DNA of 18,548 nucleotides, from assembly GCA_002453475.1 (NCBI GenBank), contig DKGY01000088.1:1-18548 (forward strand), given 5' to 3'. The translations under genes and the position numbers were made by a program. Numbering within the stretch: the first letter of the stretch is position 1; each line of letters begins with the position of its first letter. The stretch comes from Clostridium sp. UBA6758 (GTDB taxonomy: Bacteria > Bacillota > Clostridia > Clostridiales > Clostridiaceae). Shown here in pieces: positions 1,980 to 16,239 of this stretch. The notes under the pieces are model-generated. The model did no database searches, was not told the origin of the DNA, and saw only the letters and a program-made list of their open reading frames with translations.

Positions 1980-2008
1980 AATTTACATGTTTATAAATCA
2001 AATGTCAA
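1980..2008 (-). promoter_or_regulatory. Probable trxA promoter
   Basis: On the minus strand TTGACA (2003-2008) is followed after 17 bases by TAAATT (1980-1985, four of six consensus positions). The predicted start lies about 70 bases before the trxA ATG. The -35 box is perfect and the -10 is weak, which would suit a regulated promoter. Confidence 0.5.
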
Positions 2009-2256
2009 GTAATTTAAAAAAATTATTTTTATTATAATTATATAATGAAATCTTATTTTTTAGATTTAATAATAGTAAACCCTTTTAACTTATTATTTCA
2101 TACTTCAATAGGTTTTATTTATTTTAATGTTATTTTCTATTATGAAGTTTTTAACACTTAATAAAAATATATCTCATTTTTATAAAATATAATTATCTTA
2201 AAATGAACTACTATCATTAAAATTTTTTTATAATGTTTACCATATCACTAATAGTC
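2009..2256. other. AT-rich intergenic tail with no recognisable gene
   Basis: This is the upstream part of the 355-base gap between trxA and the nucleoside transporter (1902-2256). It is very A/T-rich. I see no GC-stabilised terminator hairpin behind the transporter, no RNA gene and no convincing small coding region. Confidence 0.6.
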
Positions 2257-3471
2257 TTATAATCCTATTAAAAGTCCTGCAATAGTTGCACTTAAAAGAT
2301 TTGCTAAAGTACCTGCAACTACAGCTTTTAATCCTAACTTTGCAACTTCATGCTTTCTCTTTGGTGCCATTCCTCCAATTCCACCGATTAAAATAGCAAT
2401 TGAGGATATATTTGCAAATCCACATAATGAAAAAGTCATTATGGCTGCAGTTTTTTGTGAAAGTTCACCTATTATGGGTCCTAATTTACTAAAGGCAACA
2501 AATTCATTTAAAATTATCTTTTGTCCTAGAAGAGACCCAGCTGTTAAAGCCTCATTCCAAGGAACTCCTATAATTGCAACTACTGGTGAGAATATGTATC
2601 CAAGTATCATTTCTAAACTTAATCCCTCTATCCCCGCAAGTCCACCAATAAATCCTATTATTCCATTTACTAAAGCTATAAGAGAAATAAATGCAAGTAA
2701 CATGGCACCTATGTTTAGCGCTAAACCTAACCCTTCTGATGCTCCCTTCGCTGCTGCATCTACCACGTTAACTGAATCATCTTTTCCTAATTCAATTTTA
2801 TCTTCTAAGGCTTTTGCATCACTTTCTGGAAATATCATTTTCGCCATTATAAGTCCTGCTGGAGCAGCCATAAAGCTTGCTGAGATAAGATATTCTAGTG
2901 GAATCCCCATAAGTGAATATCCAACCAAAACAGAACCTGAAACTGAAGCTACACCTCCAACCATTACAGTAAAGAGTTCTGATGTAGATAGTTTATTGAT
3001 ATATGGTTTTATTAAAAGAGGTGATTCTGTTTGTGATAAAAATATATTTGCAGCTGCTGACAAAGTTTCAAGCTTAGAAGTTCCTAAAAGTTTTGCTAAA
3101 GCTCCACCTATTATCTTTACAACAAATTGCATTATTCCAAAGTAGTACAATACAGAAACTAAAGATGAAATAAATATAATAACGGTCAATACTTGAAAAG
3201 CAAAAACCATTCCTCCATTAGTAGGTATAGCTGCTCCAAATAAAAAATTTATTCCTTCATTTGCATACCCGATAATTGACGTTGCCATTGTCGCTATCTT
3301 CTGTAAAACTTTTTTTCCAACAGCTGACTTTAAAACTATAACTGCAAAGCCCAATTGAATTAAAAATCCTATAATAATAGTTCTCCAGTTTATTTTCTTC
3401 TTATTATTTGATAGTAAGAATGCCACTATAAAAATAAATATAATACCTATAATGCTATTTAATATGCTCAT
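2257..3471 (-). CDS. nupC: Concentrative nucleoside transporter (NupC/CNT family)
   Basis: 404-residue polytopic membrane protein predicted to import nucleosides with a cation. Family features seen: the N-terminal hydrophobic helices, a [19 protein letters not shown] segment (around 170-190), [21 protein letters not shown] (around 310-330), and the C-terminal [22 protein letters not shown] stretch. Length is normal for bacterial CNT proteins. The ATG at 3471 is preceded by GGTGAT. Coupling ion and exact substrate cannot be read with certainty. It is a single-gene unit whose upstream region is unusual: the nearest promoter is a copy of the MarR-operon promoter, leaving a leader of about 140 bases with an unused ribosome site. 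Confidence 0.94.
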
Positions 3472-3564
3472 TGAATCACCTTTATCCTTTGTAATTTTTC
3501 TATTATATTGTTATCTTCAATATAATCTACTATTCATCAGTAAAAATACTTAATAATTAACCTC

Positions 3565-3568
3565 CTAT
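3565..3568 (-). other. Relic ribosome binding site in the nupC leader
   Basis: TAGGAGG on the minus strand matches the ribosome site of the membrane-protein gene in copy B, but the bases after it are TTAATTATTAAG, with no usable start codon at proper distance. It is what is left of the former first gene. Confidence 0.6.
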
Positions 3569-3579
3569 AAAATAAATTA

Positions 3580-3625
3580 AAAATAGTTCGCATTAGAACA
3601 CTCCATTTCCTCCGCAAACTATTTT
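3580..3625 (-). promoter_or_regulatory. 46-nt palindrome upstream of nupC (diverged operator copy)
   Basis: The outer arms AAAATAGTT and AACTATTTT and the adjacent GC step still pair, but the inner bases have drifted compared with copy B. It overlaps the end of the -10 and the start site, as an operator would. On the minus strand it is followed by a T-rich stretch, so it could also act as a terminator for read-through from marR. Confidence 0.6.
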
Positions 3626-3649
3626 ATGTTGAATCATTAAAAATGTCAA
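3621..3649 (-). promoter_or_regulatory. Promoter copy upstream of nupC
   Basis: Minus-strand TTGACA (3644-3649), 17-base spacer, TAAAAT (3621-3626): near-perfect housekeeping promoter, with both boxes and spacing identical to those at 4690-4718. The next intact gene is nupC, about 140 bases downstream of the predicted start. Confidence 0.78.
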
Positions 3650-3671
3650 TTTATCTTATGAGATAATTATT

Positions 3672-3725
3672 TTATTTAATAGATAAAGATATTGAGAATA
3701 CAGTTCCCTGTTTTTCTGATTTTAC
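3672..3725 (-). pseudogene. Remnant of the sensor kinase C-terminus
   Basis: Read on the minus strand, this piece encodes V, then KSEKQGTVFSISLSIK and a stop. The last residues of the intact kinase at 4741-5760 are KSKKQGTIFSIFLPIK and a stop. Thus 12 of 16 residues agree and the stop is in the same place. A one-base loss just before it breaks the frame, and the rest of the kinase is missing. It has no start codon or ribosome site, so it is a fossil and not a small gene. It overlaps the last bases of marR. Confidence 0.92.
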
Positions 3726-4144
3726 TTAATCTTATTTCTTATCTTTAGTAAATAATCTCTCATTTCTAGTACTTCTTCTTCTGTAAAATTTTTAAATATT
3801 TTATCAAAACCTTGATTAATTTGATTTCTAAATTCCTTAGCAAATTCTATCCCTTTATCTGAAAATGTAACATAGGTATTCCTCTTATCGTCTTCATTCT
3901 TAACCTTTTTTACATATCCAGAGCTCTCTAGTCTTGATACTATACCCGAAACAGTTCCCTTTGCTAAGGACATCTCATCACACAATTGAGATATATTAAC
4001 CTTCCCCTTATGTGCAATTAGTTTAATGACCATTATCTGTTGATGGGTAAGTCCACTATCTTTTAGATTCTCACTAACTATACCGATGGTGCTTGCATAT
4101 ATATCTTTTATGAGCATTGATATTTCAAACGAATCATATTTCAT
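3722..4144 (-). CDS. MarR-family transcriptional regulator
   Basis: 140-residue winged-helix repressor with the usual MarR layout: N-terminal dimer helices (1-30), HTH with LTHQQIMVIKLIAHKGKVNIS and LCDEMSLAKGTVSGIVSRLE (about 29-73), the wing around VKNEDDKRNTYV, and C-terminal dimer helices. ATG at 4144, with GGAGAGG upstream. It follows the membrane-protein gene by 17 bases and shares its promoter, where a 46-nt palindrome is a good autoregulatory site (inference). Ligand unknown. Its stop codon is oddly placed: the codons ATT AAG TAA lie in sequence that matches the sensor kinase gene, so the C-terminus was set by the duplication junction. Length is still normal for the family. Confidence 0.93.
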   Translation of the reverse strand: MKYDSFEISMLIKDIYASTIGIVSENLKDSGLTHQQIMVIKLIAHKGKVNISQLCDEMSLAKGTVSGIVSRLESSGYVKKVKNEDDKRNTYVTFSDKGIEFAKEFRNQINQGFDKIFKNFTEEEVLEMRDYLLKIRNKIK

Positions 4145-4161
4145 ATAAACCTCTCCTAAAT

Positions 4162-4626
4162 TTAACTATTATATTTTAGCTTGGTATTTTCGAAATTTAA
4201 TGAATTAATTAAGAAAGACACTCCAGCCATAAATAATGCTCCGCCTAATCCCATATAAAAAGTTCCCACATAAACAGGATTAAAAACTCCGAGATTTCTT
4301 ATAGTTATTCCAAAGAATATCATGAACACCATTATACAATAGCTCTTAAAATCGAAGAATGAGAATACACAATGTTTTTGTAAACTACTATTTATAATTC
4401 TTCTAGTGTGCTTTTTAGACATTTTACTAAATATGAATTTAAAGAATGCGTAAAACACTATGCTAGCAACAATTAAGCTAATAATCCAATTTCCATGATT
4501 TATTTGTACATCTCCTTGACCTAATGTAAATACTCTAAATCCTGCAAATCCCCAAACTAATCCTGCTATTAATAATAAAGTTTTCTTTCCTACCTTTAGA
4601 ATATATTTATCTAAATTTTTCATCAT
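4162..4626 (-). CDS. Small four-helix membrane protein of unknown function
   Basis: 154-residue hydrophobic protein I do not recognise. Four likely membrane helices: TLLLIAGLVWGFAGFRVF, WIISLIVASIVFYAFFKFIF, SYCIMVFMIFFGITI, and VYVGTFYMGLGGALFMAGV, with a basic loop KMSKKHTRRI between the second and third. A start at the tandem ATGATG (4626 or 4623) fits GGAG at 4632-4635. A longer frame from 4662 would begin inside the operator palindrome and is unlikely. It is the first gene of an operon with marR, so it may be the effector of that regulator, for example in transport or envelope stress, but nothing in the sequence proves this. Confidence 0.8.
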   Translation of the reverse strand: MMKNLDKYILKVGKKTLLLIAGLVWGFAGFRVFTLGQGDVQINHGNWIISLIVASIVFYAFFKFIFSKMSKKHTRRIINSSLQKHCVFSFFDFKSYCIMVFMIFFGITIRNLGVFNPVYVGTFYMGLGGALFMAGVSFLINSLNFENTKLKYNS

Positions 4627-4648
4627 ATCATCTCCTATAAAATAAATA

Positions 4649-4694
4649 AAAATAGTTCGCATTAGAACCTTTTAGTTCCTATGCAAACTATTTT
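4649..4694 (-). promoter_or_regulatory. 46-nt palindromic operator of the membrane-protein/marR operon
   Basis: Two 20-base arms (4649-4668 and 4675-4694) pair at 17 of 20 positions around a six-base centre. Each arm also holds a smaller inverted repeat of the type TAGTT-N8-AAC, the size of a site for a MarR dimer, so two dimers could bind. It begins inside the -10 and covers the start site. For transcripts reading through from the kinase it would form a stem followed by TTTTTATTT, so it may double as a terminator. Confidence 0.7.
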
Positions 4695-4718
4695 ATGCTC
4701 ATTTATTAAAAATGTCAA
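4690..4718 (-). promoter_or_regulatory. Promoter of the membrane-protein/marR operon
   Basis: Minus-strand TTGACA (4713-4718), 17-base spacer, TAAAAT (4690-4695). The predicted start near 4683 gives a leader of about 57 bases and lies inside the palindrome, a classic repressed arrangement. Confidence 0.8.
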
Positions 4719-4740
4719 CCAATCTTATAAGATAATTAAT

Positions 4741-5760
4741 TTATTTAATAGGTAAAAATATTGAGAATATAGTTCCCTGTTTTTTTGATTTTACTTTAAT
4801 ATATCCACCTTGTTTTGAAACAATTTTCCTTGCTAAATAAAGTCCTATACCAATCCCTTCAGCATCACCAACATTTTTCCCTCTATAAAACCTACTAAAT
4901 ATTTTAGGTAGTTCTTCTTCACTAATCCCTATACCATTATCCTCGATATCTATCCTTGCAAATATTTCATAACTTTGTATAGAAATATTAATTACTCCAT
5001 TTTCTTTTGTGTACTTTACTGCATTTTCTAGAATATTAAATACACTCTCTATAGTCCAGTTTCTATCATGTAAAATTGTAACCTTATCCTTTTCATTAAG
5101 CTCTAAAATTATATTTTTACATTCTGCCTTTTTACGTATTTGACCTATTGCTAATAATATAGTTTCATTTAAACTTTCATAATCTGGCTTTATCTGAATT
5201 ACTCCAATTTCTAGCCTAGACATTTTAATCATACTTTCTACCAGGAAACTAAGTTCATTTAAAGAAACCATAATTGTTTCTTGAAACTCTCTTCTCTCCT
5301 CTTCTGTCAAATTATCATATTGAAGAAACTCACCATACATCTTTAAATTTGTTAATGGTGTTTTTAATTGATGGGCTATATCAGAAATTAATGACTTTAT
5401 TTCATTCTTGTCATCTTCTATTTGTTTATTTTGAGCTTTTAAAACTCGATTTAACTTAATAGTTTGTGATTGAAGCTTTGAGAAAACCGAATCTTCAACC
5501 ATAGAGAATATTTCTTTGTCCTTCATATCAGCCATTATAGCTAACATATCTGAAAGCTTTATAAGTATTTCTTCCATATAGCTTTTAAATAGTCTTTCAT
5601 ACATATAAAATCCTAAAATAATTATTATTGAAAAAAGAGTTGAGATAATAGTTACGTTAAGATTTTTTACTGCAAAAGCTATGAAGGTAGTAAATACTAA
5701 ACAAATTAATATAATTGATATTTGAATCATATTTTTCATCTTATAAAAATTACTTTTCAT
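4741..5760 (-). CDS. Sensor histidine kinase with short extracytoplasmic loop
   Basis: 339-residue membrane kinase. Two membrane helices (about 11-31 and 37-54) are joined by only about five residues, so it has almost no external sensor domain, as in intramembrane-sensing kinases that take their signal from a partner transporter. Then a linker, the H box SDIAHQLKTPLTNL with phospho-acceptor His130, N box NILENAVKYT (Asn246), G1 DNGIG (274-278), F box IFSRFYRG and G2 GIGIG (302-306). All catalytic motifs are present. It starts three bases after the response regulator stop, so the two are co-translated. The ABC exporter just upstream on the same strand is the likely partner. Its 3' end is duplicated as a fossil at 3672-3725. 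Confidence 0.94.
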   Translation of the reverse strand: MKSNFYKMKNMIQISIILICLVFTTFIAFAVKNLNVTIISTLFSIIIILGFYMYERLFKSYMEEILIKLSDMLAIMADMKDKEIFSMVEDSVFSKLQSQTIKLNRVLKAQNKQIEDDKNEIKSLISDIAHQLKTPLTNLKMYGEFLQYDNLTEEERREFQETIMVSLNELSFLVESMIKMSRLEIGVIQIKPDYESLNETILLAIGQIRKKAECKNIILELNEKDKVTILHDRNWTIESVFNILENAVKYTKENGVINISIQSYEIFARIDIEDNGIGISEEELPKIFSRFYRGKNVGDAEGIGIGLYLARKIVSKQGGYIKVKSKKQGTIFSIFLPIK

Positions 5761-5763
5761 ATG

Positions 5764-6438
5764 CTACTCTCCAAACACATATCCAATACCAAAAACCGTA
5801 ATAATATACCTAGGGTTTTTAGAATCTTTTTCTATTTTCTTGCGTATACGTCTTATATTTACACTTAAAGTATTTTCATCTACAAAATTCCCCTTAACAT
5901 CCCAAAGCTTTTCTAGAAGCATTTCCTTAGTCATCACCTTCCCTTTATTTCTAACAAGTAATTCTAAAAGCTTATATTCAGTACTAGTTAAATTAATTTG
6001 ATTTTTTCCTTCAAAAACAGATTTTCTATCAAAATCTACTTTTAAATCTTTATATTGAAAAATATCTTTAGTATCAACTGATTGCCTTCTCAATATAGCA
6101 TTAACTTTATGTTTTAATATTTCCAAGGAAAATGGTTTTGCTAAATAATCATCACAACCACTTTCAAAACCTTGTAACATATCTTCATCTGTATCATTGG
6201 CAGTAAAAAATACAATAGGAAAATTGACGCTTCCTCTAATATCATCACATAGCTGCAACCCACTCCCATCAGGCAAGTTTATATCTAGCAATAAAAAGTC
6301 AATCTCATTATTTTGAATTAAAGTCTTTCCTTCATCTTTAGTATAAGCTGAAAGTATATTATATCCTTCTTTTCTTAATGCAAAGGTAACACCTTTATTG
6401 AGGATTTTATCATCTTCAATAATCAAAATTGTTGTCAT
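5764..6438 (-). CDS. OmpR-family response regulator
   Basis: 224-residue regulator: receiver domain 1-115 with acidic pocket EDD (8-10), phosphorylated Asp52 in LLLDINLPDGSG, the switch Thr in VFFTAND and Lys101 in AKPFS. The winged-helix DNA-binding domain follows (about 127-224) with LTSTEYKLLELLVRNKGKV and VDENTLSVNIRRIRKKIE. GAGGTG precedes the ATG at 6438. Paired with the kinase at 4741-5760. Its probable target is the ABC operon at 6499-9706, whose upstream region carries repeated TTGTMAGA-like boxes. Confidence 0.95.
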   Translation of the reverse strand: MTTILIIEDDKILNKGVTFALRKEGYNILSAYTKDEGKTLIQNNEIDFLLLDINLPDGSGLQLCDDIRGSVNFPIVFFTANDTDEDMLQGFESGCDDYLAKPFSLEILKHKVNAILRRQSVDTKDIFQYKDLKVDFDRKSVFEGKNQINLTSTEYKLLELLVRNKGKVMTKEMLLEKLWDVKGNFVDENTLSVNIRRIRKKIEKDSKNPRYIITVFGIGYVFGE

Positions 6439-6455
6439 TATATCACCTCTTTTTT

Positions 6456-6464
6456 ATTATAACA
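6456..6464 (-). promoter_or_regulatory. Possible extended -10 promoter of the response regulator
   Basis: Minus-strand TGTTATAAT (TG at 6463-6464, TATAAT at 6456-6461) fits an extended -10. No good -35 is seen. The predicted start would be right at the GAGGTG ribosome site, giving a leader of only about ten bases, so this is uncertain. Confidence 0.35.
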
Positions 6465-6492
6465 AAAGTGACAGATTGTATAAATCTGCCAC
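6464..6492 (-). terminator. Terminator between ABC permease and response regulator
   Basis: Bases 6468-6477 pair with 6483-6492 at nine of ten positions around a five-base loop, followed on the minus strand by TTTTGTT. It begins seven bases after the permease stop and separates exporter from two-component genes. The weak T-tract suggests partial read-through. Confidence 0.7.
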
Positions 6493-6498
6493 CTAAGA

Positions 6499-9030
6499 TT
6501 AATTTTCAGTTTCTCTTATACGTTCAGTCACACTTTTTTTTGAAGATGTTTTAAATACGACGCTAGGTGTAATTAAACATACTGCAAATATAAATACTAC
6601 TAAGATTAATAACGAAACTGTTGGAAATACAAACTCTGCATAATCTGCAATCTGTTTTGTTAATTCTGCCATTCCATATATAATTCCCATTCCTAATGTG
6701 AAAATAAATAAAGTAGTTATACTTGCATAATATAGACCTTCAAAGGTAAGCATTTTTTTAATTTGTTTTTTAGTCATACCTATACTTTCCATTACTGCAA
6801 GTTCCTTTAATCTAACATTAACTCCTGTAATCATCACATTTATGAAATTTAAAATTCCAATTAATATAAGAATACAAGAAATTCCTCCCCCAAGTATCTT
6901 CATTACCATTGATGTATTATTAAACTCTTTTATTGTATCACTTTTAGATTCAAACCATAGTCCACGACTATTTGTTAATGTCTTTAATTGCTGTTTAATT
7001 TTAGCTTCATATATCTCATCAACATTTACTTGTAATAAATAATGAGCTGCATCTTTATCTAACTTTTCCATAGCTGAATTACTAATATAAATTGTTGGTG
7101 CACCCAATACTCCACCTAATCCATAAGGTAAGTTTCCATTAGTATAACTGATAAATTGCGCTTTATAGTTGGCAATAACTCCGGTGTCTTTATCTTTAAT
7201 ACTAAAATTTTCACCTTTTAATTCACTATAAAGTGACTTATTCTTTCCGTCATAAAATATTGGCTTAATTAAAGCCAAGTTTCCTTTCTTAAATTCTTCT
7301 ATATCTATTTTCTCTTCAGCCTCTTCATTATATCTCTCTATAAGGTCATCATCTATTCCAAGAATCCAACTAAAATATATACTTGGATCTTCTTTAACTT
7401 TATTCAAAAATACATTTAATCCTTCTTGTGACATACCTTCCTTTATACTTGCTTCTTCAATTAAAGGTAAAAAGAAGTTATCTGTCATATCTAGCTCCGC
7501 TAAGCTTACTTTTGTAACAGCAACATTTTTAACTCCTTGCATACTTCTAATATTATCAACTAAAGGTTTATCTAATTTCTCCTTATCAGTATTAATATTT
7601 TGAACTTCAAAATCATTTTTCTTATATCTATTTATAAAATTATCTACACCAAGGCTATCTAGGAAAGTGTTTACGCTAAGAAATGTCATAATACCCATAA
7701 ATAATGAAAGAAATACAACTATTGCACGCTTTTTATCACGAAACACATTATACCAAGCCATCTTATAAAGCTTTCCTCCATTAGTTGACTTTCTATTTTT
7801 CTTTTGTTTCTTTATTTTTGCTCCTGAATATCTTAACGCTTCTGTTGGTGAGATACTACTAGCAACTTTAGCTGGCTTATTACAACTTAATATTACTGTT
7901 AATAATGCAAATAGCGCTGCTCCAACAAAAATCATGGGGTTAAAGGATATATCAGATGGCATTGCACTTCCATTGTATCCTCCATCCTTAAAAGTACCCA
8001 TAGTTATTGGTACAATTATAAAAGAAAATATAACCGCTAGTACTAATCCTATAGGAATACCTACTGTAGCTAGCCTTAAAACTTGGCCTTTAACTATCTT
8101 CTTTATTTGTCGTGGTGATGTCCCTATAGTTTTTATAAGTCCATAAAAATTAATATCCTTAGTAACTGATATATACATAACATTATAAATAAGTAAGTAT
8201 CCACTAAGTACTATGAATAAAGAAATAATTACTATTATAATTATAGTTACAATTGCAGTACTTGATGACTCTTCAGTTACATCATAGCTATATTGAAATT
8301 CTTGCCCTGTTTTACACCTGATCTCTGAATCTAATATATCTGGTGCATTATCTTTTTCCCTATTATTTAAAGTCATAAATACAGTTCCATTTTTCTCCAA
8401 TGTTAGATTCTTACTATTTATAAATTCTTCAGAAACCATTAAATATCCTGTATCTTGAACAATATCATAGTTAGTATAATAACCGCTTAAAATAAATTCA
8501 GATTCTTTTACCTCTCCCTTTATTGTATAAGAAATCTTTATTTTATCCCCTATTTTAGCATCTTTTAATCCCAAAAACTCTAGTGATTTCCTAGATGCCA
8601 TAACTTGATTTTCTTTAGCAGGATAATCTCCTTCAATATCACTTATACAAGGTGTTATTTGATTTTCCCAATCTATCCTGTCATGATATTCTATGTTTAT
8701 TTTTGTTTTATTCTTATCTAAAGAATCTGCCTTAACTCTACCTACATTAATTTGATATCCTACACTTTTGAAAATATCTAGTTTTTTTAATTTCTCATAC
8801 TGTCCATTAGTTGCTTCTTCTAAGGTTGTATTGGCCGTTGTACCTTGTATACGCAAATTCATCACCATATAGTTTTTTGCAAAACTAATTCCTATACTAA
8901 ATACAGTTGAAATCATAAAGGTAGTTAAAATTATAGCTACAATAGCAAATATATTCCTTGTTTTATTAGCTCTAATGGATCTCTTAATTATTCTCTTAAC
9001 TACTTCCTTATTATTATTTTCAAACATCAT
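6499..9030 (-). CDS. ABC transporter permease with two FtsX-type halves
   Basis: 843-residue permease of the MacB/FtsX superfamily. About eight membrane helices in two halves: helix near 30-55, a first external region of about 200 residues, three helices (about 258-388), then a second helix (435-460), a second external region of about 250 residues, and three C-terminal helices. The motifs NVMYISVTKDINFYGLIKTIG and NVMITGVNVRLKELAVMESIGM are the two paired FtsX signatures. This layout differs from BceB, which has ten helices and one external domain. ATG at 9030 is chosen because GAGGTG (9037-9042) is six bases away; the GTG at 9039 lies in that site. It overlaps the ATPase gene by 11 bases. 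Probable export or removal of an amphipathic substrate such as an antimicrobial peptide (inference). Confidence 0.9.
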   Translation of the reverse strand: MMFENNNKEVVKRIIKRSIRANKTRNIFAIVAIILTTFMISTVFSIGISFAKNYMVMNLRIQGTTANTTLEEATNGQYEKLKKLDIFKSVGYQINVGRVKADSLDKNKTKINIEYHDRIDWENQITPCISDIEGDYPAKENQVMASRKSLEFLGLKDAKIGDKIKISYTIKGEVKESEFILSGYYTNYDIVQDTGYLMVSEEFINSKNLTLEKNGTVFMTLNNREKDNAPDILDSEIRCKTGQEFQYSYDVTEESSSTAIVTIIIIVIISLFIVLSGYLLIYNVMYISVTKDINFYGLIKTIGTSPRQIKKIVKGQVLRLATVGIPIGLVLAVIFSFIIVPITMGTFKDGGYNGSAMPSDISFNPMIFVGAALFALLTVILSCNKPAKVASSISPTEALRYSGAKIKKQKKNRKSTNGGKLYKMAWYNVFRDKKRAIVVFLSLFMGIMTFLSVNTFLDSLGVDNFINRYKKNDFEVQNINTDKEKLDKPLVDNIRSMQGVKNVAVTKVSLAELDMTDNFFLPLIEEASIKEGMSQEGLNVFLNKVKEDPSIYFSWILGIDDDLIERYNEEAEEKIDIEEFKKGNLALIKPIFYDGKNKSLYSELKGENFSIKDKDTGVIANYKAQFISYTNGNLPYGLGGVLGAPTIYISNSAMEKLDKDAAHYLLQVNVDEIYEAKIKQQLKTLTNSRGLWFESKSDTIKEFNNTSMVMKILGGGISCILILIGILNFINVMITGVNVRLKELAVMESIGMTKKQIKKMLTFEGLYYASITTLFIFTLGMGIIYGMAELTKQIADYAEFVFPTVSLLILVVFIFAVCLITPSVVFKTSSKKSVTERIRETEN

Positions 9031-9706
9031 AATTATCACCTCTCACTGCAACCCTACCATCTTCTATTCTAATAATTCTGTCAGCAAGCTGTGCAATTTC
9101 TTCATTATGGGTAATCATAACCATAGTTTGATTAAATTTATTGCTAGTCATCTTTAAAAGTCCAATAACATCCATACTTGTTTTACTATCAAGATTTCCT
9201 GTTGGCTCGTCCGCTAATATTATTGCAGGCTTTGTTGCTAATGCCCTTGCAATTGCAACTCTCTGCTGCTGTCCTCCAGATAAGTTATTAGGCATATTAG
9301 TAAGTTTTTCTTTTAAACTCAACGTGTCAATAATTGAGTCTACATATTCCTTATCAATCTTAACACCATCTAACTCTATAGGGAGAACTATATTTTCATA
9401 AACATTTAAAATTGGAACTAGATTATAGTTTTGAAATATAAATCCTATATTTCTTCTCCTGAAAATTGTAAGTTCTTCATCCTTCATATCACTTAATTTC
9501 TTTTCTAATATATAAACATCACCACTAGTAGGTCTATCTAGTCCTCCTAGCATATTAAGCAACGTAGACTTACCACTACCCGATGTGCCTATTATCGCTA
9601 TGAATTCACCTTCATTTATATCTATACTTACATCGTCTAAGGCATTAACTACATTAGGTTCTTCCCCATAAATTTTAATTAGCTTATATGTCTTTAATAT
9701 ACTCAT
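9020..9706 (-). CDS. ABC transporter ATPase (MacB/LolD type)
   Basis: 228-residue ATPase energising the FtsX-type permease that overlaps its 3' end. Walker A GTSGSGKST (40-48), Q-loop in FIFQNYNLVP, signature LSGGQQQR (142-149), Walker B IILADE (162-167), and switch His200 in MITHN. Length and the LDRPTSGDVYI segment are typical for this family of peptide, lipoprotein and macrolide exporters. ATG at 9706 with GGAGTGAT upstream. First gene of the exporter operon. Confidence 0.96.
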   Translation of the reverse strand: MSILKTYKLIKIYGEEPNVVNALDDVSIDINEGEFIAIIGTSGSGKSTLLNMLGGLDRPTSGDVYILEKKLSDMKDEELTIFRRRNIGFIFQNYNLVPILNVYENIVLPIELDGVKIDKEYVDSIIDTLSLKEKLTNMPNNLSGGQQQRVAIARALATKPAIILADEPTGNLDSKTSMDVIGLLKMTSNKFNQTMVMITHNEEIAQLADRIIRIEDGRVAVRGDNYDV

Positions 9707-10594: not shown

Positions 10595-11236
10595 ATGAGA
10601 GTACCAAATCATATTGGAATAATTCCTGATGGCAACAGACGCTGGGCTTTATCAAATAACCTAACCAAGGATAGAGGATATAAACATGGCATAAATCCTG
10701 GTCTTGAAGTATTTAAACTTTGCCAAAAAGAAAATATAAAAGAATTAACATTCTACGGTTTTACTATAGATAACACAAAACGTCCCTCTGATCAAAAGCT
10801 TGCTTTTATACAAGCTTGCATTGATTCTGTAATGCTTTTAACAAAAGAGGATTGTGAAATATTAGTTATTGGGAATACTGAATCAAGTGCTTTTCCCAAA
10901 GCTTTAATTCCCTTTACAACTAGAAAAAAATTTGGTAATGGTGGTATTAAGGTAAACTTCCTAATCCATTATGGATGGGAGTGGGACTTAAATCTATTGA
11001 AAAAATCCAATTCCTCTAATAAACATATTCTACCTTTCATACATTCAGAGGATATTTCTAGAATTGATCTAATCATAAGATGGGGAGGTCGAAGAAGGCT
11101 TAGTGGTTTTTTACCAATTCAGTCTGTATACTCTGATTTTTACGTAATAGACACCTATTGGCCTGATTTCACTTCTACAGAATTCTATAATGCTTTAAAC
11201 TGGTATAATGAACAAGATGTTACCCTTGGTGGTTAA
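10595..11236 (+). CDS. Divergent short cis-prenyltransferase (UppS-like)
   Basis: 213-residue member of the undecaprenyl diphosphate synthase family. The hallmark PDGNRRWA with catalytic Asp12 is intact, and LTFYGFTIDNTKRP, DLIIRWGGRRRLSGF and YSDFYVIDTYWPDF correspond to the canonical YxFSTENWxRP, DLxIRTGGExRxSNF and YxELYFxxxxWPDF. Several key positions are changed: the metal-binding Glu of RTGGE is Arg166, Asn of SNF is Gly171, and NYGGR is HYGWE (125-129). The protein is also about 30-40 residues shorter than housekeeping UppS. It is therefore probably not the main UPP synthase, and chain length or even activity is open. GGAGG lies at 10586-10590. Its place between two envelope-stress modules hints at a lipid-cycle role (inference). 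Confidence 0.87.
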   Translation: MRVPNHIGIIPDGNRRWALSNNLTKDRGYKHGINPGLEVFKLCQKENIKELTFYGFTIDNTKRPSDQKLAFIQACIDSVMLLTKEDCEILVIGNTESSAFPKALIPFTTRKKFGNGGIKVNFLIHYGWEWDLNLLKKSNSSNKHILPFIHSEDISRIDLIIRWGGRRRLSGFLPIQSVYSDFYVIDTYWPDFTSTEFYNALNWYNEQDVTLGG

Positions 11237-11372: not shown

Positions 11373-13283
11373 TTATACCCTGACTATCTTTTTAAATGTC
11401 TTCATTGAGATAATTGCACTAACTCCAAATATAAGTATACTTACTAATACACTTATATTATAAGTACTATTTAAATCTAGAGATAGAAATTTCCCTAGAG
11501 TTCTAATAGCAAAGTAACTATGAATTAAGCCTACTACTACTGGTATTACATAAAATAATGCAACCTCTTTATTTATAGATTTTCTTAACTCTTTATTAGA
11601 TGCTCCAATGTTCAATAATATTTTATACTTACTTTTATCTTCCTTTGCATCACTGTATATCTTAATATAAATTATACTAGCTTCTGCTAAAATAAATACT
11701 AAAAATAAGAATGCTCCTATTGCATAAATACCTTTCATCCATTCAATTCTCTTACTTTCATATATTCCTAGTGTGGCATGAGTTGTTTCTATATCAATAT
11801 ATTTACTTATTTCATTTATGATAGATTCTAATTTTTCCATATTAAGAAGCTCTTCTTCATTATTTATCTTAATGCCATAGAAATTAACTAATTCACTCTT
11901 AGCTTTTATTTTCTCATAATTTTCATCATTTACAACAACAGTTATATAATTTAACTCTGATCCAAAGGTACGTAGCCTAATACTACTTTCACTTACTTTA
12001 AACTCCATGTCATTTACAGTTATGCTATCATGGCTACGGAGACTAGCTATTGTTCCTGGTCTCTGGATGAAAATTGCTTGATCATCCTTAACCATATCTT
12101 CATTTATTTTGCTTAGGCTATCTTCATTCCCATTTATCTTTAAAATATCAATTAATTTATTATAAGATAATACTATATAATCATCATTATTATAATTTGG
12201 TACATCTTTAAATGTACTTTTAGCCTTTAAAACCTGAGTGCTTAATTCATATTTTTCTTCTCCAATACTAGATAAAACTTTCTTAATATCTTCTTTATTG
12301 TTTATTTCATTTAATGAAGAGAAAGATATTGAATATAATCTATTATTAGCATCTGATTCATCATATGATGCCTTCATTGCAACTGACGTACCTAATACTG
12401 TTACTGTACATGCTGTAAGAATTGCTATAGTTGCATATGTTGTATAATTTTTTCTTAATCTATAAGCTAAATTATTAATAGTTATTATGTTTTCCCCATT
12501 GTATAAAATAGATTTTCTTTTAATAAAGAAATTAAATACTACTGGTAGCACAGTTCCAAACAATCCGTAAGTACCTGCACAAACTAAAAGTAATGCAGTA
12601 AATGCATTCATTTTATCTTTAAGTATTAGATAATATGCAATTATAACTAAGACTAGTGATATAAATGAAATTATATATATCTTCCAATTTATCTTAGGCA
12701 TTTTTTCTGTTTTCTTACTATCATTTAAAAGGTCTATCACATTACTTCTAATAATACTTATAAATCCTTTTAAACTCATAAATAGAAATATTCCAAGAAA
12801 TATTAAAACCGTATATATTATCGAATTTACTGTTACATTAAAATTAACGTTTATATCAAATTCAGCTATCTTAAATACTATCATTTGAAAAAATTTAGAT
12901 AATGCAACACCTATTCCTGTACCTAGTAAACATGAACTTAATCCTATAAGCATAATTTCGATAAAATAGATTCTACCTATTGTATTAGAGTCTAACCCCA
13001 TAAAAGTATAAATACCAATCTCTTTTTTTCTATTTCTCAAAAATACATTTGATGAATACCATATAAAGAAAAACATAAATATTATAAGTATCGACGTTAA
13101 CATCTGTATTACAAGTTTTGCATACTCTTCATTTAAATCACCCAAATACTTCAAAGCATTTCCATCCATCAGTATCATAAAGTTACTTAGGATAACTACT
13201 GAAAATACCATTGAAATAAAGAACATAGTATACACTTTTATGTTGTTTTTAAAATTATTATAGGCTATCTGGAAAACACTCAT
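11373..13283 (-). CDS. BceB-like ABC transporter permease
   Basis: 636-residue permease with the BceB layout: ten membrane helices and one large external domain of about 210 residues (about 303-515) between helices 7 and 8. The cytoplasmic SSNVFLRNRKKEIGIYTFMGL segment (77-97) and the closing FtsX-like helices near 518-540, 573-592 and 608-627 fit this family. BceB-type permeases free or sense peptide antibiotics bound to lipid-cycle intermediates and pass the signal to their kinase. The ATG overlaps the ATPase stop by one base (TAATG) and GGAGGTG lies upstream, so the two are translationally coupled. Substrate cannot be told from sequence. Last gene of the module, ending at the shared terminator at 11251-11289. 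Confidence 0.93.
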   Translation of the reverse strand: MSVFQIAYNNFKNNIKVYTMFFISMVFSVVILSNFMILMDGNALKYLGDLNEEYAKLVIQMLTSILIIFMFFFIWYSSNVFLRNRKKEIGIYTFMGLDSNTIGRIYFIEIMLIGLSSCLLGTGIGVALSKFFQMIVFKIAEFDINVNFNVTVNSIIYTVLIFLGIFLFMSLKGFISIIRSNVIDLLNDSKKTEKMPKINWKIYIISFISLVLVIIAYYLILKDKMNAFTALLLVCAGTYGLFGTVLPVVFNFFIKRKSILYNGENIITINNLAYRLRKNYTTYATIAILTACTVTVLGTSVAMKASYDESDANNRLYSISFSSLNEINNKEDIKKVLSSIGEEKYELSTQVLKAKSTFKDVPNYNNDDYIVLSYNKLIDILKINGNEDSLSKINEDMVKDDQAIFIQRPGTIASLRSHDSITVNDMEFKVSESSIRLRTFGSELNYITVVVNDENYEKIKAKSELVNFYGIKINNEEELLNMEKLESIINEISKYIDIETTHATLGIYESKRIEWMKGIYAIGAFLFLVFILAEASIIYIKIYSDAKEDKSKYKILLNIGASNKELRKSINKEVALFYVIPVVVGLIHSYFAIRTLGKFLSLDLNSTYNISVLVSILIFGVSAIISMKTFKKIVRV

Positions 13284-14035
13284 TACTTTGCACCTCCTAA
13301 AGATGCTAATAAATCTATTATCCTTCCATAAAACTCTTTTCTATCAGTTCCCTTATTAAGTTGACACTTTATTTCTCCATCACTTAATATATAAACTCTG
13401 TCTGAATAGCTGGCACTTAGTGCATCATGAGTAACCATTATAATAGTTGCCTTCTCTTCCTTGTTTACCCTATTCAAACATTCTAGTAAATCTGAAGATG
13501 ACTTTGAATCTAAAGCTCCTGTTGGCTCATCTGCAAATATAACCTTAGGATTTGTTATTAAGGCTCTAGTGGCAGCCCCTCTTTGCTTTTGTCCACCTGA
13601 TAACTCATAGGGATATTTTTTCAAATGGTCTTTAAGACCAAATAAGTCTGCAATTTTTATAACTCTGTCCTCTATGTCCTTACTTTTTTTCTTACCTAAT
13701 GCAAGAGGTAATGCTATATTATCCATTAAGTTCATATTATCTAAAAGGTTATAGTCTTGAAATATAAATCCTATATTATCTCTTCTGAGTTTAGATAGCT
13801 CTTTATTTTTAACTTTAGTTATATCTACTCCATCTAGTATTATTTCACCTTTAGTTGGTTTATCTAATGTAGATATCAGATTTAATAAAGTACTTTTTCC
13901 AGATCCTGAAGGACCCATTATAGAAATAAAATCTCCTTCATTAACTGTAAGAGAAACTTTATTTAAAACTTTATTCCTAAAACCTTTAATTCCATACTCT
14001 TTATCAACATCATTTAATTTTAATATTTCTTTCAC
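13283..14035 (-). CDS. BceA-like ABC transporter ATPase
   Basis: 250-residue ATPase partner of the BceB-like permease. Walker A GPSGSGKST (41-49), Q-loop in FIFQDYNLLDNMNL, signature LSGGQKQRGAA (145-155), Walker B VIFADE (165-170), and switch His203 in MVTHD. I chose the GTG at 14035 because GGAGG (14043-14047) is seven bases upstream and the protein then begins MKEILKLNDVDKEYG, as BceA proteins do. The ATG at 14080 would add 15 atypical residues and has only a poor ribosome site. Separated from the kinase gene by 224 bases with a possible regulator site, so it probably has its own inducible promoter. Confidence 0.94.
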   Translation of the reverse strand: MKEILKLNDVDKEYGIKGFRNKVLNKVSLTVNEGDFISIMGPSGSGKSTLLNLISTLDKPTKGEIILDGVDITKVKNKELSKLRRDNIGFIFQDYNLLDNMNLMDNIALPLALGKKKSKDIEDRVIKIADLFGLKDHLKKYPYELSGGQKQRGAATRALITNPKVIFADEPTGALDSKSSSDLLECLNRVNKEEKATIIMVTHDALSASYSDRVYILSDGEIKCQLNKGTDRKEFYGRIIDLLASLGGAK

Positions 14036-14155
14036 TTTTTTTCCTCCAATATAATCACACTTAATTTTTATTAGATTCATACCTAACCCTAATTTAATTC
14101 TAATAGTTTTTATATTGGTTTTCCCTCTCTTAAAGTTACTTTTAAAGCTCTAACA

Positions 14156-14169
14156 TTACATTTTAGTAA
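14156..14169 (-). promoter_or_regulatory. Candidate BceR-type binding site upstream of the ABC genes
   Basis: Minus strand TTACT-AAAA-TGTAA (plus strand TTACA-TTTT-AGTAA). The published BceR-type consensus I recall is TnACA-N4-TGTAA, so this fits in spacing and all but one base. A possible -10 (TATAAA) lies further downstream near 14110. Position between kinase and transporter genes is where Bce-type target promoters usually are. Confidence 0.45.
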
Positions 14170-14259
14170 CATTGAAGTTTAATCATAACATTTTTTCATA
14201 AATAATTAATCTTGTAACTAGCACATCATCTATCTACCTTTACATAGGTACATCTTTAA

Positions 14260-15282
14260 TTAGGTCAAACTTTTTAGATAATCTGATATTTTATAAAATC
14301 TTATTTTAAAGACTGTAAATTCTCCTTGAATTGATTCAACTTCTATTTTATGCTCTAACCTTTCTATAATTTTTTTAGAGAAGTATAAGCCCATACCAGT
14401 AGATTTATATACTGTATTTCTTCCATTAGTTCCTGTAAAGCCTTTATTGAAAATTCTATCTATATCCTCTTTAGCTATCCCTATTCCATTATCCTTGATG
14501 TATAACTCTATATACTTTCCTTCATCTTTAGCATAAAATTGTAACTTCCCAAAATCTTTTATATATTTAATAGAATTATTAATAATTTGATCTAAAATAT
14601 AAGCTAACCACTTTTTATCAGTGTAAATATTATAACTTAAATCTTCTATTTCAATTTCTATATTATTTTTAATAAGGAAAAAAGCATTATTCTTTACACT
14701 TTGTTTTACTATTTCTTTTAATATTTCCTCTTTAATGAATATATCTTCAGCTGAAGCTGTGGATCGACTTCCATACATAACTGAATTCACCAAAAAATTA
14801 ATCTTCTCAACTTCATTTTTTACACTATGGCCTATATCCTCATCCTCTATTCTCTCTGATATGATATTTAAAGCACTTATAGGAATCTTTATTTCATGAA
14901 TCCATTTAGAAATATATTCTTCCATATCCCTTAAATTTTCTTCATATAATTTAACATTTTTATACTTGTCATATTCTTTGCTCCTAATAATATAAGTCAT
15001 TATTTCTTCTTCTAACGATTCCCCATTAATATCATTAATGGCAATCCCTTTATTATCATCCATCAACTTATATAAATCTCCATATACTTTTTTCCACTTG
15101 CTATATTCCATAAATAGAAACACTAAGTATATCACTGTAATAATAAAATCTATATAGATTAAATCTCCTAAATTATTCTTGAATGAAGTTAGGCAAAATA
15201 AAAATAAATTTACTACTATAAATGTAGTTACAAAGCATACTATACTTAATGATTTCTCTTTAATAAATCTTCCTATGTCCAT
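14260..15282 (-). CDS. BceS-like intramembrane-sensing histidine kinase
   Basis: 340-residue kinase. Two membrane helices (about 12-32 and 40-58) with a loop of about eight residues and no sensor domain, the mark of BceS-type kinases that are controlled by their ABC transporter. H box KWIHEIKIPISAL with His129, N box QIINNSIKYI (Asn235/236), G1 DNGIG (264-268) and G2 STGMGLY (294-300). The WIHEIK form of the H box is typical of this class. It starts on the stop codon of the regulator (TAATG), so they are co-translated. A weak inverted repeat TACCT-N6-AGGTA (14235-14250) follows its stop codon and may be a small attenuator. Confidence 0.95.
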   Translation of the reverse strand: MDIGRFIKEKSLSIVCFVTTFIVVNLFLFCLTSFKNNLGDLIYIDFIITVIYLVFLFMEYSKWKKVYGDLYKLMDDNKGIAINDINGESLEEEIMTYIIRSKEYDKYKNVKLYEENLRDMEEYISKWIHEIKIPISALNIISERIEDEDIGHSVKNEVEKINFLVNSVMYGSRSTASAEDIFIKEEILKEIVKQSVKNNAFFLIKNNIEIEIEDLSYNIYTDKKWLAYILDQIINNSIKYIKDFGKLQFYAKDEGKYIELYIKDNGIGIAKEDIDRIFNKGFTGTNGRNTVYKSTGMGLYFSKKIIERLEHKIEVESIQGEFTVFKIRFYKISDYLKSLT

Positions 15283-15950
15283 TAAACCATGTAACCTATA
15301 CCTTTCTTTGTTTTAATAAAATCATCAAGTCCAATTTCTTTAATCTTATTCCTAAGCCTTGTTATATTAACTGTTAATGTATTATCACTGACAAATTCAT
15401 CATCATTCCAAAGGCTCATCATAAGCTTATCTCTAGATACAACCTTTTCTCTATTCTTAATTAAAACAGACAATATCTTAATTTCATTTTTAGTTAACTC
15501 TATAGTATTATTACCGTATTTAAATGTACATTTTTCTATATCTAAAACTGCATCATTGTAATAAATTATAGACTCACTCCCTGCATAATCATATGTCCTT
15601 CTAAGCAATGCATTTATTTTGGTTATTAAAACTTCTATGGAAAATGGTTTTGTAATATAATCGTCTCCTCCATTATTAATCCCCATAATTAAATCCATAT
15701 TAGAATCCCTTGATGATAAAAATATAATAGGTACTTTTGAAACCTCTCTAATTTTCTTACACCAATAAAAACCATCATAATAAGGTAAGTTAACATCCAT
15801 TATTAACAACTGTGGCTCTTTTTCTATAAACTCTTTTAGTATGCTATCAAAATTCTCTATTAAATTTACTTCAAATCCCCATTTATTTAATGATGATGAT
15901 AACACCTTTGATAAATCTAAATCATCCTCTACTAATAATATTTCTTTCAT
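15282..15950 (-). CDS. BceR-like OmpR-family response regulator
   Basis: 222-residue regulator. Receiver with EDD (8-10), phosphorylated Asp52 in LIMDVNLPYYDGF, switch residues around IIFLSSRDS, and Lys101 in ITKPFS. DNA-binding winged helix about 125-222 with LTKNEIKILSVLIKNREKVVSRDKL split across helix and turn, and DNTLTVNITRLRNKI as recognition helix. The ATG at 15950 has GAGGAG upstream; the longer frame to 15983 crosses this site. First gene of the kinase pair. Expected to switch on the BceAB-like genes at 11373-14035 when the permease detects a peptide antibiotic. Confidence 0.95.
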   Translation of the reverse strand: MKEILLVEDDLDLSKVLSSSLNKWGFEVNLIENFDSILKEFIEKEPQLLIMDVNLPYYDGFYWCKKIREVSKVPIIFLSSRDSNMDLIMGINNGGDDYITKPFSIEVLITKINALLRRTYDYAGSESIIYYNDAVLDIEKCTFKYGNNTIELTKNEIKILSVLIKNREKVVSRDKLMMSLWNDDEFVSDNTLTVNITRLRNKIKEIGLDDFIKTKKGIGYMV

Positions 15951-16239
15951 ACTTTCTCCTCTTATCTTTTTACATTTAAACATTAAACACTATATTACAT
16001 TTAATACATTATACAATAAAAAACAAATACATAAAAATATACCTTATTTAATTTTATTACACATACATATTAACTTTAATTTTCATTATTCTGTAACTTA
16101 AATTCAATATCTTCATATAGTAATATTGAGATACATTAATAAACCATATATAATTTATTAATGCATTTAAAATCTCCTTTATATTACATACTCCCAAAAC
16201 ATAAACTTAGGAGTAAATATAAAAAGTGAGGTAATATAT
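15951..16239. promoter_or_regulatory. Divergent 289-base intergenic region
   Basis: Lies between the BceR-like gene (minus) and the cysteine-rich gene (plus). Minus-strand TATAAT at 16008-16013 is a possible -10 for the regulator, with no strong -35. Inverted repeats: TCAATAT/ATATTGA (16104-16110 and 16123-16129), a 10-bp perfect pair CATTAATAAA/TTTATTAATG (16134-16143 and 16154-16163) and TACTCC/GGAGTA (16189-16194 and 16210-16215). I find no confident promoter for the plus-strand gene; a sporulation sigma factor is possible. Confidence 0.4.

Follow-up and report, generated by a model that had tools for sequence, protein, structure and literature searches.

Organization of the locus

The window, that is the whole stretch of 18,548 nucleotides analyzed here, carries the locus on its minus strand. 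Read along that strand, the genes of an ABC ATPase, an ABC permease, a response regulator and a sensor histidine kinase are followed by a repeat designated copy B, the genes mem and marR, a second copy of the repeat (copy A), and the nucleoside transporter gene nupC (Table 1). The mem protein matched no Pfam or NCBIfam family at 1e-3, its Pfam matches all being sub-threshold, and one of its relatives is named DUF3278 in UniRef.

Table 1 Positions of the genes, repeats and putative regulatory sites of the locus in the window.
Feature	Position	Strand	Basis
Nucleoside transporter gene nupC (TIGR00804), preceded by a ribosome site of its own	2257..3471	-	sequence and family match
Copy A: dead kinase tail, promoter/operator and mem ribosome site, between marR and nupC	3562..3727	-	repeat search, alignment
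Copy A distal half-site TAGTTCGCATTAGAAC, identical in copy B	3584..3599	+	sequence comparison
Eroded proximal MarR-type site of copy A, differing from TAGTTYGCATNNNAACTA at 4 positions by visual count	3604..3621	-	comparison
Copy A -35/-10, TTGACA-17-TAAAAT, putative nupC promoter	3621..3649	-	promoter scan
Kinase-tail relic (KSEKQGTVFSISLSIK, stop) in copy A	3672..3727	-	alignment, homologue ends
marR, 140 aa	3722..4144	-	ORF, comparison with L001
mem, 154-aa predicted membrane protein	4162..4626	-	ORF, family search
Copy B: live kinase end, promoter/operator and mem ribosome site	4632..4796	-	repeat search, alignment
Copy B distal half-site TAGTTCGCATTAGAAC	4653..4668	+	sequence comparison
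Copy B proximal MarR-type site, perfect TAGTTYGCATNNNAACTA match	4673..4690	-	pattern scan
Copy B -35/-10, TTGACA-17-TAAAAT, putative mem-marR promoter	4690..4718	-	promoter scan
Sensor histidine kinase, source of the tail	4741..5760	-	ORF
Response regulator	5764..6438	-	ORF
ABC ATPase, leading gene of the ABC-regulator-kinase set; start kept as a stub in G009	9020..9706	-	family match, comparison

The repeat and the kinase-tail relic

The repeat search paired positions 3570–3727 with 4639–4796 at 85% identity and an offset of 1069. Over their full extent the two copies are ~85% identical, far above chance: their local alignment scored 224, while random segment pairs from the window (≤300) gave a mean of 20.9, an SD of 3.3 and a maximum of 36, which rules out the chance-level similarity of AT-rich DNA. 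The initial annotation had described two 169-bp copies offset by exactly 1070 bp. The repeat is real, but the offset is 1069 through most of it and becomes 1070 only past a 1-bp indel. The agreement between the offset and the length of the mem-marR unit had been taken as a sign of a tandem unit; it follows simply from the position of the copy A start at the marR end, and therefore provides no separate evidence for such a unit.

Copy A overlaps the final codons of marR at its start and extends to the mem ribosome site AGGAG, past which the copies diverge. It contains KSEKQGTVFSISLSIK with a stop, TTGACA-17-TAAAAT, AGGAG, and two inverted operator-like sites. The sequence and the ends of 10 kinase homologues agree with its earlier description as a dead kinase tail with the mem-marR promoter/operator, lying ahead of nupC. 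In the relic, serine occupies two positions that are phenylalanine and proline in all 10 homologues whose ends were compared, and the tail is therefore considered dead. Over 17 codons, the relic differs from copy B by four nonsynonymous and no synonymous changes. Had 20% of the synonymous sites diverged, finding no such change would have a probability of 0.08, falling to 0.004 at 38%. This speaks for the tail having doubled recently. Slower divergence of the kinase tail (4/52 differences) than of the promoter (18/118) between the copies was also considered and is not significant (Fisher p 0.22).

Comparison with related genomes

A genome scan with MarR yielded 26 loci, the closest being L001 (Clostridium sp. 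UBA1056). L001 has the order LP, promoter, mem, marR, a 92-base spacer and nupC, with copy A and the ABC, regulator and kinase genes absent from the locus; the initial annotation had named a relative without copy A as informative, and L001 is one. The family search with the kinase gave no match in the L001 genome at 1e-50. Since the L001 marR-nupC spacer contains neither a terminator-like site nor a strict sigma-70 match, nupC is probably the third gene of the operon there. Upstream of mem in L001, a kinase-tail relic, which would show loss of the kinase, was rejected as a candidate (1419/2000 shuffles scored as high), and so was an ABC ATPase start in the same gap (904/2000).

Six of the seven genomes in the genus of L001 match positions 2257–4800 of the window, among them G009, and L001 and G009 are the only two close relatives found. 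G009, which is nearer to the window than L001 is, has the copy A promoter directly before nupC with 93–95% identity, whereas mem, marR and an adjacent kinase are absent. The promoter was therefore in place before nupC by the time the window and G009 split. No MarR orthologue was found in G009, where MarR relatives are at most 27% identical save for a 55-residue match at 35%. In the family kinase search, 57 genomes matched and G009 was not one of them, although the searched set need not include G009. What G009 retains upstream of its promoter is the region preceding the ABC ATPase together with the first codons of that gene (92 bp, 85%); from there the sequence passes into the promoter near the position of the kinase stop. 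This stub indicates that the ABC-kinase genes were probably once present and were lost by deletion. The initial annotation had held that a copy A without any kinase gene nearby would speak against its history; G009 literally provides such a copy, without a kinase tail, but the case is not a clean one because the ABC start is retained.

Comparison with L001 also locates the joint between marR and copy A. The window MarR (140 residues) lacks the last three residues, ENQ, of the L001 MarR (143 residues), being cut at the joint. Among 18 other relatives compared, about 6–9 have a MarR of 143 or more than 142 residues (143 in L002, L004, L005, L007, L008 and L011) and the rest have 136 to 142. With L001 as a proxy for the ancestral marR end, the joint shows microhomology between marR and the kinase tail, AAG[G/T]AAAATCAA, matching at 11 of 12 bases with an exact run of 8; in the window sequence, a random joint would show an exact match of 8 bases with a probability of ~0.0004. 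This left joint, from the marR 3' end to the kinase tail, is novel and is read directly from the DNA, and a tandem duplication and both rival histories discussed below would produce the same one. At the other end, the 27 bases past copy A showed no significant homology to L001 (1147/5000 shuffles scored as high), and the right joint is therefore not located with single-base precision. Exact retention of a 27-base spacer was accordingly discarded: the lengths match, with similarity at chance.

Putative promoters and operator

The promoter scan of positions 2000–6500 detected 26 sites, a number at the level of shuffled sequence (29.3), and the sites of copies A and B score best, each with 11/12 matches. 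The pattern TAGTTYGCATNNNAACTA, allowing up to 2 mismatches, lies within 220 bases upstream of mem/marR in 18 of 21 MarR loci (L001–L021, at least 53% identity; the scan covered L001–L022 of the 26 loci found), and L022 (31% identity) has a weak match only. The three loci missing it upstream (L012, L014 and L015) have a similar copy elsewhere in the locus. Of 30 MEM loci, 15 also carry the pattern upstream of mem, among them every one of the 13 loci L048–L060. A reversed-pattern control gave 0/21 in the MarR loci and none in the MEM stretches. With this conservation upstream of mem/marR and its absence with the reversed pattern, TAGTTYGCATNNNAACTA is likely a MarR site, at which MarR is predicted to bind. 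No report of AGTTTGCATA as a bacterial MarR operator appeared in the titles and the opening parts of abstracts among the papers listed, and nothing linking DUF3278 with MarR was found in the literature.

In L014 (10481–10527) and L015 (5671–5717), the same operator lies between marR and the next ABC transporter gene and not upstream of marR. In G007, a member of the genus of L001, marR and mem are found on different contigs, with perfect operator matches close to each gene (C2:89940-89977, C5:165633-165650), which suggests control of mem in trans.

A genome-wide regulon was sought with the operator at up to 2 mismatches. Matches against the reversed control were 16/4 in G001, 4/7 in G002, 10/2 in G003, 8/7 in G004 and 10/2 in G005 in a first scan, and 10/2 in G009, 9/6 in G001, 10/4 in G003 and 9/2 in G007 in a second. 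The excess is present in some genomes and absent in others, and for this reason no regulon was drawn.

The G009 copy shows the same erosion of the proximal site as copy A. Between the window and G009, 81 consecutive bases around the -35, -10 and operators are identical, within a stretch down to nupC that is generally well conserved. In the window, neither a terminator-like site between marR and nupC nor an RNA element ahead of nupC at Rfam gathering scores was found. Copy A is probably the nupC promoter with its main operator eroded, the promoter activity being predicted; G009 has neither a mem-marR promoter further upstream nor a MarR orthologue left. MarR may still touch the distal half-site of copy A in the window, so that weak control of nupC is possible. 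As a separate observation, operator erosion in copy A (3577–3613, minus strand) created GGAGG-AA-ATG and a 9-codon frame, MECSNANYF, with a spacing that looks too short for a usual start.

Sequence divergence and exchanged segments

The dS values between the window and L001 fall at very different levels. They are 0.531 for nupC, 0.539 for uppS, 0.554 for trxB and 0.625 for marR2, as against 0.159 for mem, 0.162 for marR, 0.165 for LP, and 0.10–0.13 for RR2, HK2, ABC2a and ABC2p. Intermediate values were obtained for trxA (0.301) and for a small Cys-rich gene (0.209), although the latter is present in G009. Between the window and G009, dS is 0.20–0.33 over the eight genes common to both. The seven genes with dS below 0.17 (mem, marR, LP, RR2, HK2, ABC2a and ABC2p) are all missing from the G009 stretch. 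The low dS together with this absence indicates that mem-marR, LP and RR2-ABC2 have been recently exchanged between the lines of the window and L001, as judged from the sequence comparison. Gain by the window is a simpler reading than exchange in the other direction or allelic replacement, though allelic replacement of a never-lost mem-marR or transfer towards the L001 line could also produce the low dS.

Other parts of the region have patterns of their own. A second ABC transporter and two-component system (RR2-HK2-ABC2) at 11373–15983 has 93% DNA identity to L001 and is absent from the same place in G009. The uppS-like gene (10595–11236), with core-level dS of 0.54, is flanked by ABC2 and LP at 0.10–0.17, a mosaic of exchanged and resident segments. 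The segment 9852–10514 encodes a 220-residue protein without a Pfam family at 1e-3; its dS to L001 is low, and divergence is higher in its 5' part and upstream region than elsewhere. Insertion boundaries of RR2-ABC2 that seemed to differ between the window and L001 were dismissed on closer comparison, which aligns the region through with gaps, and gain and loss are therefore not told apart there.

Site patterns were compared in 118 aligned promoter columns of window copies A and B, G009 copy A and L001. In the left 30 columns, A agrees with B against L001 at 6 sites and B with L001 against A at 1; in the right 88 columns, the numbers are 4 and 9 (Fisher p 0.057). The pattern hints at a crossover near the -35 in copy B, and promoter constraint could give the same result.

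History of the locus

From these comparisons we infer an order of events and a direction of transfer to which we give close to an even chance, namely that mem-marR was deleted from the operon, leaving its promoter on nupC, and was later regained from a relative and joined at the kinase tail. The ancestral operon would have been P-mem-marR-nupC, with the copy A promoter as its old promoter. In the ancestor of the window and G009, mem-marR would have been deleted, presumably at the short ATAG homology at its ends, which would have left the promoter on nupC as in G009 today. With the regulator gone, the main operator would have eroded while the -35 and -10 were kept; loss of MarR would thus explain the eroded operator. 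In the window line, mem-marR would have been reacquired from a donor closely related to L001, by recombination within the shared promoter on the left and by joining of the marR end to the kinase tail at the microhomology on the right; the latter would have doubled the tail and shortened MarR by three residues. At present, copy B would drive mem-marR under MarR, and copy A would drive nupC largely free of it. Points in favour of this loss and regain are the eroded operator common to copy A and the G009 copy, the G009 arrangement, the dS pattern around mem-marR, the one-operon appearance of the L001 spacer, the shorter MarR of the window and the kinase-tail relic without synonymous change. Against it, the same genes must leave and return, one site just before the -35 joins copy B with L001 and not with copy A, the dS of trxA lies between the two classes, and the Cys-rich gene, at 0.209, is present in G009. 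In addition, no more than ~30 bp of the ancestral spacer separate the marR joint from the right end of copy A, a closeness that is a coincidence under loss and regain and natural for a single insertion.

Such an insertion, which we regard as possible but unlikely, would have occurred in one templated step: before the window and G009 split, repair of a break or stalled fork at the marR end would have entered the template at AAAATCAA, copied ~165 bp spanning the kinase tail through the mem ribosome site, and switched back at ATAG. G009 would then have lost the segment from the ABC gene through the tail, and the window mem-marR would have been replaced by an L001-like allele. The two ends of copy A, lying close together at the marR end, and the 8-base exact match, with its chance of ~0.0004 at a random joint, both fit this course, and no gene has to be regained. 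On the other hand, the dS of 0.16 demands a separate replacement of mem-marR, and the kinase tail (4/52 bases, 0 synonymous) is little diverged for an event older than the split, albeit not significantly so.

The initial annotation considered the simplest history to be a tandem duplication of the segment running from the kinase tail through the promoter and mem to marR, with loss of the second gene pair, so that copy A remained. We judge this rather improbable. It would yield the observed joint between marR end and kinase tail as its expected product, and tandem duplication with promoter capture has been documented in laboratory evolution (PMC11111574). However, a search for MEM in 206 family genomes matched 36, of which 35 have one match each and one (G122) has a second match that overlaps the first and contains stops; no genome with two mem-marR pairs, which the annotation had envisaged, is among these 36, although such an intermediate may be extinct or unsampled. 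The loss must also have ended within ~30 bp of the duplication joint, and duplication alone leaves the dS pattern unexplained. It is not clearly the simplest history, given the G009 promoter before nupC without mem-marR and the different dS of mem-marR and the adjoining nupC.

Finally, it is very improbable that copy A is inert debris without function and that nupC is transcribed by read-through out of mem-marR or from some other promoter: the lack of a terminator-like site between marR and nupC, the eroded operator and the dead kinase tail would suit this, but the -35/-10 are intact, the 81-base identity with G009 is retained (though the whole stretch is well conserved), and G009 has no mem-marR left to supply read-through.

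Relation to known systems and implications

In homology-facilitated illegitimate recombination, homology joins one end and microhomology the other. The regain of mem-marR proposed above would resemble it, with microhomology at one end and a possible homologous crossover at the other (site-pattern change at the -35, Fisher p 0.057), and differs in that it is reconstructed from two relatives. The locus is also like a MarR-family autoregulated operon, as marR and a membrane-protein gene appear to lie behind a conserved palindromic site overlapping the -10, and unlike one in having a second, partly eroded copy of the promoter and site before nupC.

Promoter capture by deletion or tandem duplication has been described (PMC11111574). 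As there, a gene falls behind a neighbour's promoter by deletion or illegitimate duplication with microhomology at the joint: the same promoter precedes the source operon (copy B) and nupC (copy A), and L001 has nupC without an adjacent copy A promoter. In contrast to those cases, the event here is old and natural, and before it nupC was probably a member of the source operon and not a silent gene. The literature search found no promoter capture with nupC. The locus adds a natural case to the known examples of promoter capture and does not constitute a new kind. Regulatory switching and horizontal regulatory transfer (PMC5890482, PMC9944727) likewise involve differing upstream regions of a gene in related genomes, but here the upstream region is the promoter of the neighbour operon.

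We tentatively propose that mem-marR was lost and regained in place, with the promoter as homologous anchor and microhomology at the other end, that this took a core transporter out of the MarR regulon, and that repeated exchange scars the promoters of neighbours. The locus also cautions that a direct repeat needs comparison with relatives before it is called a collapsed tandem duplication, as the copy that appears to be the fossil may in fact have been in place longer. Conservation of the MarR-type operator extends over several genera, and the operator could help to predict the targets of that regulator. The locus provides a readable natural case of a transporter gene changing its promoter and regulator, with relatives that show the states on both sides of the event.
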